Source: Candidatus Gallimonas intestinigallinarum
GTDB lineage: Bacteria; Bacillota_A; Clostridia; Christensenellales; Borkfalkiaceae
Length of the DNA stretch: 21,705 nt
Reading direction: 5' to 3'
Assembly: GCA_019116405.1 (NCBI GenBank)
Contig: DXBS01000114.1
Span: 1 to 21,705 of the forward strand
Made by a program: the position numbers and the translations under genes. Below, piece after piece: positions 6,629 through 15,869 of the stretch. Position 1 is the first letter of the stretch. Each line of letters opens with the position of its first letter. Under the pieces are notes generated by a model that did no database searches, had not been told where the DNA came from, and saw only the letters and a list, made by a program, of their open reading frames with translations.

Positions 6629-8095
6629 ATGCTGGTCAATGTCATCCCACAACTTCAAAAGTGGCGCTACCTGCCTTCGGTGCGCGCGTTCTTCAGCTCG
6701 GGGTGGTACATTGCCTGCATCGTGCTGCTCATGGCGTGCTCGGAGCTGTTTTCACTGGAGCTGTACGTCATTCCCGCCTATCTTGTGCTGGGGACGGTGT
6801 GCGTGCTGCTGTGCGAGGATCTGCTCGGCATCGTGCCCATGGCTGCCTGCGGCTACATGCTGTTTGCGGCGGAGAACAACCCCGGAAAATTCCCCATTAC
6901 GGGGCTGTTTGCACAAAAGTACGCGCAGGACGCGCTCTTTCTCTACATCGGGTTTGCCGTCGTCATCCTTCTGGCGCGCTTTCTCACCAAGATCTGCGAA
7001 CGCAAAAAGCGCGGCGTGCCCAAGCTGACGGCGGGGTATGTGCTCCTTAGCATCTCCTACCTGCTGGGCGGCGCGTTTACGACCTATTACGATGCGCGTA
7101 CGGTGTTCTTCGGCTTTGTCGAGATCGCCTCGCTGAGTTTCTTTTACTTCTTTTTCTATTTCAGCGTGGACTGGGAGAAGGTGCCGGAGCACTATGCGCC
7201 CCTGCTTGTGACCATCCTCGGCGTCGGGCTGTTTGCGCAGGTGCTGGGCATGTACACCAACCCCGGCGCGCCCACCCTGGACGGCGGCGGCAGCCGTGAC
7301 AGTCTCTATACGGGCTGGGGGATCTGGAACTGCATCGGCGCCATGATGGCGTTCTGTGTGCCCGCGCCCGTCTATTTTGCCGTCAAAAGGAAGAACGGCT
7401 GGCTGTATACGCTGCTCTCTACCGTGTATCTCCTGGGCGTCATCCTGACGCAGAGCCGCGGCTCCATGCTCGCAGGGGCGGGCGTCTATGTCTGCGGCGT
7501 TCTCGTGACGCTCATCAAATCCCGTGGAAAAGAACGGCTTTGGAACTTCCTCGTCTACGCCGTGCTGCTGCTGGGCGGGATTGTCATTCTGGTCCGCTAC
7601 CGGGATGCGGTGAGCGGACTGCTCAGCACGCTCATAGAAATCGGCGTCACGGACTCCGGGCGCTTCAGCCTCTATGAACAGGCGTGGGGCGTGTTCCAAG
7701 AGCATCCCTTCTTCGGCGTCGGTTGGTATGATGTCCCCGGGATCCAGTACGCGCAGGGCGGCATGTACCACAACGGGCACCCCATTCTGGAAAATTATTT
7801 CATCCCCGGGTTTGTGCACGATACCTTTTTTCAGCTGCTCGCCATGGGCGGTGTTCTTGCCTTCTTTGCTTACCTCATCCACCGTACGGACACCGTGCTG
7901 CTCTTTTTCCGCAAGCCGACGACCGCCAAGACGGTCTCGGGCATCTGCATCCTCGCCATCCTGCTTGCGAGCATTGTCGACAACCATGTGTTCAACCTCG
8001 GACCGGGGCTGCTGTATTCCATTCTCCTTGTCTTTGCGGAGAAGGCGGACGAGCGCGTGCCGGACTCCAAATTTTTGCGCGTTGCGCGTCCGTAA
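6629..8095 (+). CDS. O-antigen ligase/polymerase-like polytopic membrane protein
   Basis: This is a 488-residue integral membrane protein with about ten or more hydrophobic segments spread along its length. It resembles the O-antigen ligase/Wzy_C family: a TQSRGSMLAG motif lies before a membrane segment, and an extracytoplasmic loop reads GRFSLYEQAWGVFQEHPFFGVGWYD, as is typical before the last helices. In Gram-positive bacteria such proteins polymerise or attach surface polysaccharide or teichuronic-type glycans, so the substrate here is unknown. No other glycan genes lie beside it. The ATG at 6629 has no SD and starts six bases after a -10 box, consistent with a leaderless transcript. A terminator hairpin has the stop codon in its loop. 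Confidence 0.8.
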   Translation: MLVNVIPQLQKWRYLPSVRAFFSSGWYIACIVLLMACSELFSLELYVIPAYLVLGTVCVLLCEDLLGIVPMAACGYMLFAAENNPGKFPITGLFAQKYAQDALFLYIGFAVVILLARFLTKICERKKRGVPKLTAGYVLLSISYLLGGAFTTYYDARTVFFGFVEIASLSFFYFFFYFSVDWEKVPEHYAPLLVTILGVGLFAQVLGMYTNPGAPTLDGGGSRDSLYTGWGIWNCIGAMMAFCVPAPVYFAVKRKNGWLYTLLSTVYLLGVILTQSRGSMLAGAGVYVCGVLVTLIKSRGKERLWNFLVYAVLLLGGIVILVRYRDAVSGLLSTLIEIGVTDSGRFSLYEQAWGVFQEHPFFGVGWYDVPGIQYAQGGMYHNGHPILENYFIPGFVHDTFFQLLAMGGVLAFFAYLIHRTDTVLLFFRKPTTAKTVSGICILAILLASIVDNHVFNLGPGLLYSILLVFAEKADERVPDSKFLRVARP

Positions 8096-9524: not shown

Positions 9525-9553
9525 TTGACAAGGATGGGACGGGGTGTTACAAT
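9525..9553 (+). promoter_or_regulatory. Sigma-A type promoter for leader peptide and acetyltransferase
   Basis: TTGACA (9525-9530), a 17-base spacer and TACAAT (9548-9553) make a near-consensus promoter. The predicted start coincides with the ATG of the leader ORF at 9560. Confidence 0.88.
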
Positions 9554-9559
9554 ACAACT

Positions 9560-9622
9560 ATGAAAAAGTTTTCTGCAACCGTCAATGCCATGCGTCCCGT
9601 ATTTGCCAAGCGAATGCGGTGA
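9560..9622 (+). CDS. 20-residue leader peptide, putative attenuator uORF
   Basis: The short frame encodes MKKFSATVNAMRPVFAKRMR. It begins six bases after the -10 box and so would be translated from the 5' end of the RNA without an SD. It ends Lys-Arg-Met-Arg; the Arg-X-Arg arrangement is the known macrolide-dependent arrest signature (+X+) of erm-type leader peptides. Its stop lies in the loop of a small hairpin (9611-9615 with 9622-9626). An intrinsic terminator follows 28 bases later and then the acetyltransferase SD. The layout is that of a ribosome-controlled attenuator. That the peptide is made, and what it senses, is inference. Confidence 0.6.
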   Translation: MKKFSATVNAMRPVFAKRMR

Positions 9623-9650
9623 TTCGGCGTGCCTGCATCAAGGTGTTTTT

Positions 9651-9680
9651 CCCGTCGGGTCAGCCGGCGGGTCTTTTTTT
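9651..9680 (+). terminator. Intrinsic terminator/attenuator in the acetyltransferase leader
   Basis: An 8-bp GC stem (9651-9658 with 9664-9671, one G-U pair, loop GTCAG) is followed by TC and seven T residues. The SD (GGAGGAGGG, 9681-9689) begins on the next base, so the gene is expressed only if the terminator is bypassed. Confidence 0.85.
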
Positions 9681-9690
9681 GGAGGAGGGT

Positions 9691-10266
9691 ATGAACCAAC
9701 TGGGAAGCAGGGTGCTCACAACGCAGCGGCTGATCCTGCGCCCCTTCCGCGCGACGGACGCGGAACAGGCGTTTTCGGGCTGGATGAGCGATCCCGCTGT
9801 CACGAAATATCTCACATGGGAGCGGCATGAGAGCATCTTTCTCACGCGGCAGCTGCTCGCCGCCTGGGAGCAGGAAGCAAAGCTTCTCACGACCTACCAT
9901 TGGGCGATCGTCTGGCGGGAGACGGGGGTGGTCATCGGGGATATCTCCGTGCCGACCGCCGACATGCGCTCGCAGTGGGCGGAGGTCGCGTACTGTCTCT
10001 CGCGCGCGTTCTGGGGCAGGGGCATCATGACGGAGGCGCTCTCTGCCGTCATCGATTTTCTCATCGGGAAGGTCGGCTTTCTTCGCATCGAGGCAAAGCA
10101 CGCAACGGAAAACGTCGCCTCGGGGCGGGTGATGGAAAAGTGCGGCATGCAATTGGAGGGCGTGCTGCGTAAGGGACACCGCCTGCTCTCCACGGGCGAA
10201 CTTGTGGACATCGCCATCCGCGCCATCCTGCGCGAGGAGTGGGAAGCAAGAAAAGCGCAGCAATAG
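9691..10266 (+). CDS. GNAT-family N-acetyltransferase (RimJ/RimL type)
   Basis: This is a 191-residue acetyl-CoA-dependent N-acetyltransferase of the RimJ/RimL-like GNAT group. It starts with the typical beta strand (LTTQRLILRPFRATDAEQAF) and carries the acetyl-CoA motif A as EVAYCLSRAFWGRGIMTEAL. The group-typical segment KHATENVASGRVMEKCGMQLEGVLR follows. The ATG at 9691 sits 1 base after an exceptionally purine-rich SD run. Members of this group acetylate ribosomal protein N-termini, but others modify small molecules including antibiotics, so the substrate cannot be told from sequence. The leader peptide and terminator upstream imply conditional expression and favour a stress or drug response. 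Confidence 0.88.
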   Translation: MNQLGSRVLTTQRLILRPFRATDAEQAFSGWMSDPAVTKYLTWERHESIFLTRQLLAAWEQEAKLLTTYHWAIVWRETGVVIGDISVPTADMRSQWAEVAYCLSRAFWGRGIMTEALSAVIDFLIGKVGFLRIEAKHATENVASGRVMEKCGMQLEGVLRKGHRLLSTGELVDIAIRAILREEWEARKAQQ

Positions 10267-10307
10267 TGTCACCCTTCTTCCCTGCGGGGAGGCAAGAAAA
10301 GCGCAGC
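10246..10307 (+). repeat. 16-bp direct repeat at the 3' end of the acetyltransferase gene
   Basis: GCAAGAAAAGCGCAGC occurs at 10246-10261, within the last codons, and exactly again at 10292-10307, just after the stop. It suggests a local duplication of the gene's 3' end or a decayed insertion. Confidence 0.7.
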
Positions 10308-10492
10308 GACTTTTGCTATCAATTACGGCGCAAGGAAAGTCGCGCCTTTCCGCAGCGGGACTCAATTTGCGCGTCAGCGCTTTGGGGAAAGAGTGAAGCG
10401 GCGCGCGCTATTATGTTGCGATTGCGCGCCGCGAGAAAAACAGAACGCAGAGCCGCATTGCGACGTACCCGCGGGTTTTCCTAAAACTCACG

Positions 10493-10549: not shown

Positions 10550-10578
10550 TTTACATTTGCAAGGAAATAGAGTATAAT
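10550..10578 (+). promoter_or_regulatory. Sigma-A type promoter for the metG operon
   Basis: TTTACA (10550-10555), a 17-base spacer and TATAAT (10573-10578). The predicted start near 10585 gives a leader of about 57 bases with an SD-like AGGGAGA at 10631-10637. Confidence 0.85.
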
Positions 10579-10641: not shown

Positions 10642-12630
10642 ATGAAAAAACCCTATTATGTCACCACGGCGATCGCCTACACCTCGGGCAAGCCGCACAT
10701 TGGAAACACCTACGAGGCAATTTTAACGGACGCGATCGTCCGCTTCAAGCGCCTGCAGGGCTATGACGTCCGCTTCCAGACGGGCACGGACGAGCACGGG
10801 CAGAAGATCGAAGAGAAGGCGGAGGCGGCGGGCGTCACCCCGCAGGCGTACGTCGACAACGTCGCAAACGTCATCCGCACCATCTGGGACAGCGTCGGCA
10901 CGTCCTACGATAAGTTTATCCGCACGACCGATCACGATCACTGCGCCACCGTGCAGAAGATCTTCCGCAAGTTCTATGAGCAGGGCGATATCTACAAGAG
11001 CGAGTACGAGGGCTGGTACTGCACGCCGTGCGAGAGCTTTTGGACGGAGAGCCAGCTCGTGGATGGCAAGTGTCCCGACTGCGGCAGAGAGGTAAAAAAG
11101 GCAAAGGAAGAGGCGTATTTCTTCAAGATGGGCAAGTATGCGGACAGGCTCATCGCGCACATTGAGTCCCACCCCGATTTCATCCGTCCCGTCTCCAGAA
11201 AGAACGAGATGATGAACAATTTCTTAAAGAAAGGGCTTCAGGATCTGTGTGTCTCGCGCTCCACCTTCACATGGGGCATTCCCGTCGACTTTGACAGCCG
11301 CCACGTCGTCTACGTCTGGCTGGATGCGCTCACCAACTATATCACCGGTCTCGGGTACGATCCGGACGGCAATTCGGACGAGCTGTACAAGAAGTACTGG
11401 CAGGGCAGCGAGAAGCTGCACGTCATCGGCAAGGACATCGCCCGCTTTCACACCATTTACTGGCCCATCTTCCTGATGGCGCTGGGCGAGCCGCTGCCCG
11501 ATCACGTCTTTGCGCACCCGTGGCTGCTGCAGGGCGGCGAGAAGATGAGCAAGTCGCGCGGCAACGTCATCTACGCGGACGATCTCGCCTCAGTGTTCGG
11601 CGTGGACGCCGTGCGCTACTTCGTCCTGCACGAGATGCCCTACGAAGGGGACGGCACGATCACCTGGGAACTCATGACCGAGCGCGTCAACTCCGACCTT
11701 GCCAACACGCTGGGAAACCTGGTGCGCCGCACGCTCGCGATGACGCGCAAATATTTCGGCGGCGTCGTCGAAAATAAGAACGTCTCCGAGCCCGTGGACG
11801 AGGAACTGAAGGCAGTTGCCGTCGGCGTGCGCGCCAAGGTGGAGGCGTGCATGAACGAGTTCCGCATCGCGGACGCCCTGAACGAGTTATTCACTCTCTT
11901 CCGTCGCGCCAATAAGTATATCGATGAGACCATGCCCTGGGCGCTGGGCAAGGACGAGGGCAAGAAGGACCGCCTCGCGACCGTCCTTTATAACCTGACG
12001 GAGGCCATTTTAACGGGCGCAAGCCTTCTGTATCCCTTCCTGCCCGCGACGGCGGAGAAGATCGCGGGCTATCTGAACGCGCCTTTGAAGTCGCTGGAGG
12101 CGTGCGATACCTTCGGAAGCTACCCGAGCGGCAACACCATCGCCGCAGAGGACGAGGCACTCTTTGCCCGCTTTGACTGGAAGGAAGTTTCTCCCAAGGT
12201 GGAAGCCATCCGCAAGGCACAGCGCGAGGAGTACGAGCGCGAAAACGCGTCCGCGCAGAAGTCGGCGCCCGCCGCAAGCGAAGAAGCAACCGAGGCGAAA
12301 AAGACATTCATCTCCATTGACGACTTTGCGAAGATCGAGCTGAAAGTGGGCGAGGTCATCGCGTGCGAGCGCGTGCCCAAGTCCAAAAAACTGCTGCACG
12401 AGACCATCCGCGTGGGCGGGGAAGTGCGCTCGGTCGTCTCGGGCATCGCGCAGTTCTACACGCCCGAGGAGATGGTGGGCAAGAAGGTCGTGCTTGTCAC
12501 CAACCTTGCGCCCGTCAGGCTGTGCGGCGTACTGTCCGAGGGCATGATTTTGTGCGCCGAGGACGAACAAGGCAATCTCTCGCTGCTCACGCCCGAGCGT
12601 GCGGTGGAGAGCGGCGCGAACATCCGCTGA
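10642..12630 (+). CDS. metG: Methionyl-tRNA synthetase with C-terminal tRNA-binding domain
   Basis: MetRS charges initiator and elongator tRNA-Met. The 662-residue protein has the class I signature HIGN (residues 19-22) and KMSKS (301-305). A zinc knuckle in the connective peptide has Cys127, Cys130, Cys144 and Cys147. The anticodon-binding helical domain follows, and from about residue 555 there is an OB-fold tRNA-binding domain (FISIDDFAKIELKVGEV) joined by an Ala/Glu-rich linker. This is the full-length, dimerising B. subtilis-type architecture. The gene leads a tight operon: tatD begins one base after the stop and a radical SAM gene follows, the metS-yabD order of Bacillota. Confidence 0.98.
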   Translation: MKKPYYVTTAIAYTSGKPHIGNTYEAILTDAIVRFKRLQGYDVRFQTGTDEHGQKIEEKAEAAGVTPQAYVDNVANVIRTIWDSVGTSYDKFIRTTDHDHCATVQKIFRKFYEQGDIYKSEYEGWYCTPCESFWTESQLVDGKCPDCGREVKKAKEEAYFFKMGKYADRLIAHIESHPDFIRPVSRKNEMMNNFLKKGLQDLCVSRSTFTWGIPVDFDSRHVVYVWLDALTNYITGLGYDPDGNSDELYKKYWQGSEKLHVIGKDIARFHTIYWPIFLMALGEPLPDHVFAHPWLLQGGEKMSKSRGNVIYADDLASVFGVDAVRYFVLHEMPYEGDGTITWELMTERVNSDLANTLGNLVRRTLAMTRKYFGGVVENKNVSEPVDEELKAVAVGVRAKVEACMNEFRIADALNELFTLFRRANKYIDETMPWALGKDEGKKDRLATVLYNLTEAILTGASLLYPFLPATAEKIAGYLNAPLKSLEACDTFGSYPSGNTIAAEDEALFARFDWKEVSPKVEAIRKAQREEYERENASAQKSAPAASEEATEAKKTFISIDDFAKIELKVGEVIACERVPKSKKLLHETIRVGGEVRSVVSGIAQFYTPEEMVGKKVVLVTNLAPVRLCGVLSEGMILCAEDEQGNLSLLTPERAVESGANIR

Positions 12631-15047: not shown

Positions 15048-15869
15048 TTACAGCGGGACGAGGATCTCCCTGCCGCAGTCGGGTACGGTGATATGCGTAA
15101 ATCCGATTGTTTTCAGCGCCGCGCAGACGATGTCCCGCTTCGCGCAGATCTGCTCCACGCCGTGCGCGTCCGAGGCGAAGGACACCTTGCGCCCGCCGAG
15201 CGCGAAGTAGCGCGCCAAAATGTCCGTCCCCGGCAAAAAGTCGCCTGCCTGCCGCGCGGAGGAGTTGACCTCTAAAATTTTACCCCTTGCAATGATCGTG
15301 CGCAGGATGTCGTCCAGCAGTTCGGGGCACTCCTCGTAGCGCAGCGCCGTGGGGGCGGGGTAGGGCGCATTTCGTCCGACGTACCCGATATGCGCGACGA
15401 TATCGTAGGGATAGGGCGCGTCCAGGCTTGCGCGCACCCGCTCCAAATAGCGCGCGTACGCCTCGCGGCGCGTCTTGCCCGCGAAGTACTCGGCGTACCA
15501 CGGGTCAAAGCCGTCCACCGTGTGCACGCTGTTGACGACAAAGTCGGGGCGGAATGTTTCGATAATCGTGAGATAGCGATCGGTCGCACTCTGCGTGGGC
15601 GTGTAGCCGAACTCGCCGCCGACGAGCACGCGCATGCGGGGCGCATACTCCCGTTGCAGGGCGCGGGCGGCGGGGAAGTACGCCTCCGCGTCGATGAGCG
15701 GCACTTGCTTCCCCTCGGCGAGCACGCCGTCCGCTTCGTAGTCGTAGTCAAAGTGTTCGGAGACGCCGTAGTACGCCGCCCCCAGCTCCGCCGCGCGGGC
15801 GAGCATTTCGGGGAGCGGCGACCTGCCGTCCGCCGAAAATGTGCTGTGTGTGTGAATGTCCGTGATCAT
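15048..15869 (-). CDS. PHP-domain phosphatase, histidinol-phosphatase (HisJ) type
   Basis: This is a 273-residue PHP-domain metal-dependent phosphoesterase. It begins MITDIHTHSTFSADG, with His6 and His8 as metal ligands. It continues with the YYGVSEHFD block, VNSVHTVDG, VAHIGYVGR and the terminal SFASDAHGVEQI, an order typical of HisJ-like histidinol-phosphate phosphatases. No other his genes are nearby, so a different phosphate ester is possible. The ATG at 15869 is chosen because the protein begins with the metal motif; the longer upstream reading runs through a terminator. There is no well-placed SD, and a TATACT box ends six bases before the ATG, suggesting a leaderless message. Confidence 0.85.
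   Translation of the reverse strand: MITDIHTHSTFSADGRSPLPEMLARAAELGAAYYGVSEHFDYDYEADGVLAEGKQVPLIDAEAYFPAARALQREYAPRMRVLVGGEFGYTPTQSATDRYLTIIETFRPDFVVNSVHTVDGFDPWYAEYFAGKTRREAYARYLERVRASLDAPYPYDIVAHIGYVGRNAPYPAPTALRYEECPELLDDILRTIIARGKILEVNSSARQAGDFLPGTDILARYFALGGRKVSFASDAHGVEQICAKRDIVCAALKTIGFTHITVPDCGREILVPL

Follow-up and report, generated by a model that had tools for sequence, protein, structure and literature searches.

A probable methionine-sensing transcription attenuator with a predicted leaderless leader peptide upstream of a GNAT acetyltransferase gene and metG in uncultured Clostridia

The proteobacterial trp, his and pheST attenuators work by alternative pairing of RNA strands (1:2, 2:3 and 3:4), with the control codons in or near strand 1, and drug-inducible leader peptides (erm, msr and hflXr) control read-through or translation downstream. 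Bacilli have His leader peptides upstream of hisS/hisZ, described by authors who, in the sections used here, were aware of no such system demonstrated beyond Proteobacteria and Actinobacteria except ermC (PMC2965389), and a leucine-rich attenuator peptide is reported for the ilv operon of Staphylococcus aureus (PMC5794164). In the passages drawn on here for Streptomyces lividans TK24, the leaderless leader peptide MetL lies upstream of metNIQ, and leader peptides also occur at the tRNA-ligase genes leuS, trpS and thrS, which are stated to be leaderless, and at alaS (PMC8079986). In the excerpts used here from a 2005 study of Actinobacteria, methionine and tyrosine operons are reported to lack a conserved upstream RNA structure (PMC1262725).

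The locus described here lies in a 21,705-nucleotide stretch of DNA from Candidatus Gallimonas intestinigallinarum (contig DXBS01000114.1), which was analysed as a whole and is called the window. We consider it likely that a ribosome-mediated transcription attenuator at this locus responds to charged tRNA-Met by way of a leaderless leader peptide and controls a GNAT acetyltransferase gene and, probably by read-through, metG. Searches of open-licence papers, judged mostly from listings, brought up no report of this system. The gene names metG, metN, tyrS, DAHP synthase (aroF) and spmA/B are those that we take to apply from the protein sequences; a Pfam match, PF07670, corresponds to spmA/B. The features are as follows.

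9525..9553, plus strand: sigma-70-type promoter TTGACA-17-TACAAT, with 11 of 12 consensus matches and TG ahead of the -10 box
9560..9622, plus strand: predicted leaderless leader-peptide ORF of 20 codons, MKKFSATVNAMRPVFAKRMR, starting 6 nt past the -10 box
9590..9592 and 9620..9622, plus strand: Met codon 11 and the stop codon TGA of the leader
9585..9589, plus strand: 5' strand of P1, ATGCC, which may pair with GGCGT at 9626-9630 and so hold the antiterminator 5' strand
9597..9619, plus strand: hairpin P2 over codons 13 to 20 (9597-9606 with 9610-9619), with covariation
9620..9629, plus strand: putative antiterminator 5' strand, beginning with the leader stop codon
9653..9662, plus strand: putative antiterminator 3' strand, made up of most of the terminator left arm and the loop
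9651..9680, plus strand: intrinsic terminator and T tract (hairpin 9651-9671; 8 pairs, 7 of them GC, then TC and seven T)
9681..10266, plus strand: Shine-Dalgarno sequence GGAGGAGGG (9681-9689) and GNAT acetyltransferase gene, ATG at 9691 (PF13302)
10550..10578, plus strand: promoter of metG itself, TTTACA-17-TATAAT
10642..12630, plus strand: presumed metG (methionyl-tRNA synthetase, so named from its protein sequence), possible read-through target in view of synteny

The predicted transcription start coincides with the A of the ATG at 9560, so the leader frame would be leaderless, and the GNAT Shine-Dalgarno sequence begins on the base right after the T run of the terminator. The promoter, the 20-codon frame, the terminator with seven T residues and the adjoining Shine-Dalgarno sequence had all been pointed out in the initial annotation and are indeed present. 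The combination of a promoter, an ATG 5 to 7 nt past the -10 box, an ORF of 14 to 27 codons and a terminator occurs once in the window and in none of 1,000 dinucleotide shuffles. The RNA from 9560 to 9700 folds somewhat better than shuffled sequences (z -1.81; 10 of 200 equally good), which is weak evidence when taken alone. A GNAT start further upstream, in an ORF (9544-10266) that crosses the leader in another frame, was discarded in favor of the better Shine-Dalgarno sequence and start at 9691. Two more genes in the window look leaderless: at 6629 on the plus strand, TTGTCT-17-TATAAT is followed after 6 nt by the ATG of a 488-amino-acid ORF, and at 15869 on the minus strand, TATACT is followed after 6 nt by the ATG of an ORF that, judging from its sequence, we take to be PHP-type phosphatase-like. 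This genus may often use leaderless starts.

The mechanism that we infer would operate as follows. RNA polymerase would start at the A of the leader ATG, and a ribosome would translate the leaderless 20-codon peptide. When Met-tRNA is scarce, the ribosome would wait with Met codon 11 in the A site, where it would cover the 5' strands of P1 and P2 and leave 9620-9629 free for pairing with 9653-9662; this antiterminator would pre-empt the terminator, and the GNAT gene would be transcribed, probably together with metG by read-through. When Met-tRNA is plentiful, the ribosome would reach the stop codon and cover 9620-9629, letting the terminator form. On RNA free of ribosomes, P1 and P2 would tend to hold this segment in many, not all, relatives.

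The element is conserved in the genus. A covariance model (R1) finds it in 17 of 103 congeneric genomes at no less than 100 bits, every time at the GNAT gene, and the next match scores 40.6 bits. A divergent 18th element (genome G083, locus L332, leader MKYVNTQPMYAMPPVFNGIR) also stands at its GNAT gene, at 51% GNAT identity; the other leaders are found upstream of GNAT genes down to about 56% identity. The nearest named record, an uncultured Clostridia MAG (L061), has a GNAT that is 98% identical, and that of Candidatus Gallimonas gallistercoris (L066) is 61% identical. Invariant in the alignment of 18 sequences, window included, are TTGAC, the -10 letters TA.A.T, the ATG of codon 11 (codon 12 in L010) and the letters CG that open the last codon. 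In all 18, the leader begins 6 nt past the predicted -10 box, with ATG in 17 and CTG in L142 (element L142:2101-2252, minus strand). The position of the stop codon is constant (TGA in 12, TAG in 6), in-frame insertions and deletions comprise three nucleotides (L010; L063/L064), and the first seven pairs of the terminator are formed in 125 of 126 cells (a cell being one pair in one sequence). Conservation of the leader frame, of its last four residues and of the terminator among relatives had been named as a check in the initial annotation; the frame and the terminator are kept. A plain DNA search with the leader returned close relatives together with some partial matches and background noise. 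In a class-wide sample of 291 genomes, the sequence-only model R2 matches 2 at E <= 1e-5, both from this genus; more distant forms could escape it, because it was built from this order. In order-wide samples, the matches confirmed by their downstream gene fall in families f1, f3 and f24.

P2 shows covariation: 6 of its 10 pairs have changed on both sides and 170 of 180 cells (94.4%) are paired; for P2 and the terminator together, 95.9% of cells are paired, compared with 89.3% in shuffles that are blind to relatedness. P1, which is seen in folds of the free RNA, is weak, with 73.3% of cells paired and two-sided changes not above those in shuffles. A smaller hairpin at 9611-9626 (CGAAT/ATTCG), to which the initial annotation had given the regulatory role, does exist in the window. 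It competes with the longer hairpin 9597-9606/9610-9619, and it was dismissed as the functional one, as all of its pairs are kept in just 7 of the 18 aligned sequences. All 18 aligned GNAT leaders end on an Arg codon, either CGG or CGA (9617-9619 in the window), which is probably maintained by its pairing in P2, but the end of the peptide may have a role.

The strong structure and covariation of P2 would also suit a structured regulatory RNA or a protein-binding hairpin, riboswitch-like in kind, in which the ORF is incidental and the terminal Arg codon owes its conservation to base pairing. We regard this explanation as very improbable, given that the start, frame and stop are kept, that indels are three nucleotides long in the sequences named above and TGA and TAG replace each other in place, and that homologous elements have amino-acid-specific leaders. 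In addition, no Rfam family matches the window at its gathering threshold, and the five sub-threshold matches all belong to unrelated families. A T-box or another Rfam RNA was therefore set aside: the best sub-threshold match, anti-hemB, reaches 21.3 bits where the gathering score is 49.5 and was judged to be due to chance, and T-box RF00230 is absent from the matches at E <= 10 between 9500 and 9720.

An antiterminator partner for the terminator stem had escaped inspection by eye in the initial annotation, yet 9620-9629 can pair with 9653-9662, in the window by 10 of 10 standard pairs, and this pairing is conserved. It is possible in 94.7% of cells in the aligned sequences, a value reached in none of 500 shuffles, and antiterminator duplexes delimited by hand do better than composition shuffles, of which 0 of 1,000 are as low. 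The letters of the outer three pairs are present in only 9 of 18 sequences. Two pairs show two-sided changes, a number matched by 116 of 500 relatedness-blind shuffles, and when 5' strands are swapped between sub-types 235 of 2,000 exchanges pair equally well, so the covariation between sub-types is modest. As drawn from the base pairing, the antiterminator and the terminator would be mutually exclusive, which is the arrangement of a leader-peptide attenuator. In alignment A3, GNAT elements share a block TTTKGCGYG after the leader with the elements of tyrS and DAHP synthase, across different families. This block is apparently the 5' strand of the antiterminator, and its near-invariance may exceed what pairing alone needs.

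To relate these structures to the ribosome, the RNA behind and under a ribosome was masked at each codon, and the rest was folded up to the 3' arm of the terminator, assuming a leading edge 14 nt past the first P-site base, for the window and 14 relatives. With the conserved Met codon in the A site, 6.0 to 11.9 antiterminator pairs are predicted in the 15 sequences; when the stop codon takes its place the number is 0 to 3.3, and in free RNA 0 to 11.4. These counts suggest that the antiterminator becomes available when a ribosome pauses at codon 11 and is blocked by completed translation, and the model thus places Met 11 where a control codon would be expected. The ribosome positions that free the antiterminator are broad, from about codon 6 to codon 16 in most sequences. 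The free RNA of six sequences (the window, L001, L003, L066, L063 and L064) already forms 3.0 to 11.4 antiterminator pairs, as many in L063 as with a stalled ribosome; because of this partial formation, their off state would come mainly from the terminating ribosome. The scan lacks discrimination for the tyrS leaders and fails for the metN leaders, whose stop codon sits further downstream.

When the complete RNA is folded, equilibrium favors the terminator for almost all placements of the ribosome. The switch would therefore have to be kinetic, set while RNA polymerase moves, as in classical attenuators. The same strength of the terminator would agree with an unregulated unit, either a constitutive promoter followed by a partly efficient terminator or a small RNA with read-through into the GNAT gene; the conserved hairpin and antiterminator pairing and the pattern of control codons make this extremely improbable.

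The initial annotation had proposed a drug-responsive attenuator, in which a ribosome inhibitor, for instance a macrolide, arrests translation of the leader and induces a resistance-type GNAT. GNATs do include resistance enzymes, the leader of the window ends in KRMR, and according to the folding scan a drug that halts ribosomes at about codons 6 to 16 would also free the antiterminator in most relatives. We nevertheless find this reading quite improbable. The terminal (R/K)X(R/K) motif occurs in 2 of 19 distinct leaders, those of the window and L063, and macrolide stalling at such a motif, here Lys-Arg-Met-Arg, was rejected given its lack in the other 17; the invariant codon is Met. Stalling on the last codons had been proposed to allow read-through, but in the scan it masks the antiterminator 5' strand and should therefore lead to termination. 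Moreover, the element is linked to metG, and the residue enriched in sister leaders follows the amino acid of the downstream gene.

Support for an amino acid signal comes from both the GNAT leaders and these sister elements. Met is codon 11 (12 in L010) in all 18 aligned leaders and falls within codons 9 to 13 in 19 of 19 distinct leaders. Homologous leaderless elements with a terminator were found through the second-tier matches of R1 and through R2, and most of them carry a TTTKGCGYG-like block 3' of the leader. Inspection of 22 second-tier R1 loci placed 14 in the class and 8 outside it. In a set that overlaps with these (65 loci inspected out of 68, leaving out L278 and also L244 and L281, which repeat other loci), tyrS, DAHP synthase, metN or GNAT lies downstream in 60, the exceptions being L283, L284, L285, L287 and L340; a leader ORF was found by the 4-to-8-nt rule in 55 of the 60. 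A hairpin near the end of the ORF is present in the tyrS and metN matches shown and is less clear in those of DAHP synthase. Examples of these leaders are MKRSLAVAIYGYAYYVLA (tyrS), MKKDNLFAYAYYFYFSYGIA (DAHP synthase) and MITISHNYMYMPMSRAEMRGVSAL (metN), and the core of the L063 GNAT leader, NAMYMPVFAMRMR, resembles a metN leader core, NYMYMPMSRAEMRG.

Leader composition was counted in 56 loci, one of which is the GNAT leader L332, and 18 GNAT elements, giving 72 leaders after equal peptides were merged; near-duplicates and L288, L308, L312, L313, L180, L182 and L192 were left out. Tyr makes up 107 of 497 non-start residues in tyrS leaders, and Phe plus Tyr 120 of 305 in DAHP-synthase leaders. 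Met accounts for 32 of 188 non-start residues in metN leaders and 41 of 364 in GNAT leaders, and for only 0.6% in tyrS leaders and 1.0% in DAHP-synthase leaders. The search favors leaders of such shapes, because the models were built from them; their composition itself was not selected by gene. That sister leaders are rich in the amino acid of the downstream gene is our main reason for proposing amino acid sensing with methionine as the signal.

The downstream genes point in the same direction. Among the 55 genomes of the genus with a GNAT match at E <= 1e-40, metG adjoins the GNAT gene in 18 of 18 that bear the leader (17 strong elements and the weak one of G083) and in 3 of 37 without it (G020, G068 and G023, the GNAT gene of G023 being cut by a contig end); Fisher's test gives p 9e-12 when relatedness is ignored. 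The GNAT gene of G068 has a promoter and no leader. In G020 (L344), a few nucleotides separate the promoter from a terminator-like hairpin with T7, behind which comes the GNAT Shine-Dalgarno sequence, with no leader ORF; this hairpin is perhaps a remnant or another attenuator.

A methionine attenuator could also have GNAT as its sole real target, with the adjacency of metG incidental in view of the promoter that metG has of its own. Inspection of 30 loci shows a promoter of the form TTTAC[AT]-17-TATAAT (TAGAAT in L241) ahead of metG in 29, whether or not a GNAT gene lies in the flank; in the 30th the gene start is missing. In the window, metG begins 375 nt past the GNAT gene, and the gap holds a weak terminator-like site (-8.7 kcal/mol); the sites in the two closest relatives, L214 (-15.6) and L215 (-14.4), are stronger. 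It is these gap sites that raise the GNAT-only possibility, and they make read-through least sure in the window. We think it rather unlikely all the same that GNAT is the only target, as the presence of the leader tracks metG adjacency, 13 of the 16 GNAT-metG gaps examined are free of a terminator-like site, and 10 of the 16 are only 31 to 116 nt long. Since metG keeps its own promoter, for which reason control by the leader element alone was rejected, read-through would add to metG expression and not replace it. The gap of the window also contains a perfect 13-bp inverted repeat (10493-10505/10512-10524) with no T run behind it, and the same sequence, whole or in part, lies upstream of metG in L214 and L215. 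A near-repeat, gaagcaagaaaagcgcagc and gaggcaagaaaagcgcagc, surrounds the GNAT stop codon (10244-10310).

No family match assigns the acetyltransferase to the resistance enzymes. Its Pfam matches (PF13302 and PF00583) are generic, and none of its six NCBIfam matches (RimJ, RimL, Pat, aminoglycoside 6'-acetyltransferase, GNAT-bearing IleRS and TlmB) comes near its cut-off. Homologs number 490 at E <= 1e-20, with few and generic names among the 120 listed. Sequence comparison with the PDB gives, among other relatives, ribosomal-protein acetyltransferases and MccE (E 1.8e-5). MccE and RimL acetylate, and thereby inactivate, the aspartyl-adenylate analogue microcin C. With this role in mind, the linkage to metG leads us to a speculation that we hold to be unlikely as it stands: the GNAT might guard MetRS by acetylating a methionyl-adenylate-like inhibitor, with the attenuator sensing uncharged tRNA-Met and raising both GNAT and MetRS. 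The response would then be biphasic, on at moderate and off at extreme methionine shortage, because the leader needs initiator Met-tRNA for its own translation.

The idea that a leader peptide and a terminator here form a ribosome-controlled transcription attenuator, put forward in the initial annotation, has thus gained from the conserved ORF in front of the intrinsic terminator and from the antiterminator. If it is true, the locus would form an RNA switch that is complete within about 120 nt; its translation would have to begin at the first base, and the stop codon would belong to the antiterminator. Uncultured Clostridia that have T-boxes would also use leaderless leader-peptide attenuators for tRNA-synthetase and amino acid genes, and an uncharacterized GNAT would join a methionine/MetRS regulon, which makes its function testable.

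Like the T-box riboswitch (RF00230), the element would sense tRNA charging upstream of synthetase or amino acid genes. T-boxes occur in 103 of 103 genomes of the genus at E <= 0.001, in 42 of them above the cut-off, so both kinds of control would coexist. Drug-inducible leaders differ in that their stall motif is missing from 17 of 19 GNAT leaders, in which the invariant codon is Met. The classical trp, his and pheST leaders have a 5' UTR and a Shine-Dalgarno sequence, whereas the ORF of the window starts at the predicted first base and its stop codon belongs to strand 2. The His leaders are likewise ordinary amino acid attenuators in Bacillota at genes of the tRNA-synthetase family; they respond to histidine, and the words leaderless, methionyl, metG, tyrS and acetyltransferase are absent from the main text of that paper (PMC2965389). 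The ilv attenuator of S. aureus is also an amino acid leader peptide of Bacillota and differs by its branched-chain amino acids (PMC5794164).

MetL shares with our element a leaderless, Met-containing leader peptide in front of a methionine gene; it is actinobacterial, its termination is called unclear with a typical Rho-independent terminator missing, and the passages on MetL that we drew on name neither GNAT nor metG (PMC8079986). The element of the window, in contrast, combines a clear terminator with an antiterminator and a hairpin that covaries, and elements built in the same way stand before tyrosine, aromatic and methionine genes of related uncultured Clostridia. The kind of system is already known from the leaderless MetL of Streptomyces, and the element at GNAT-metG would be a variant of it.
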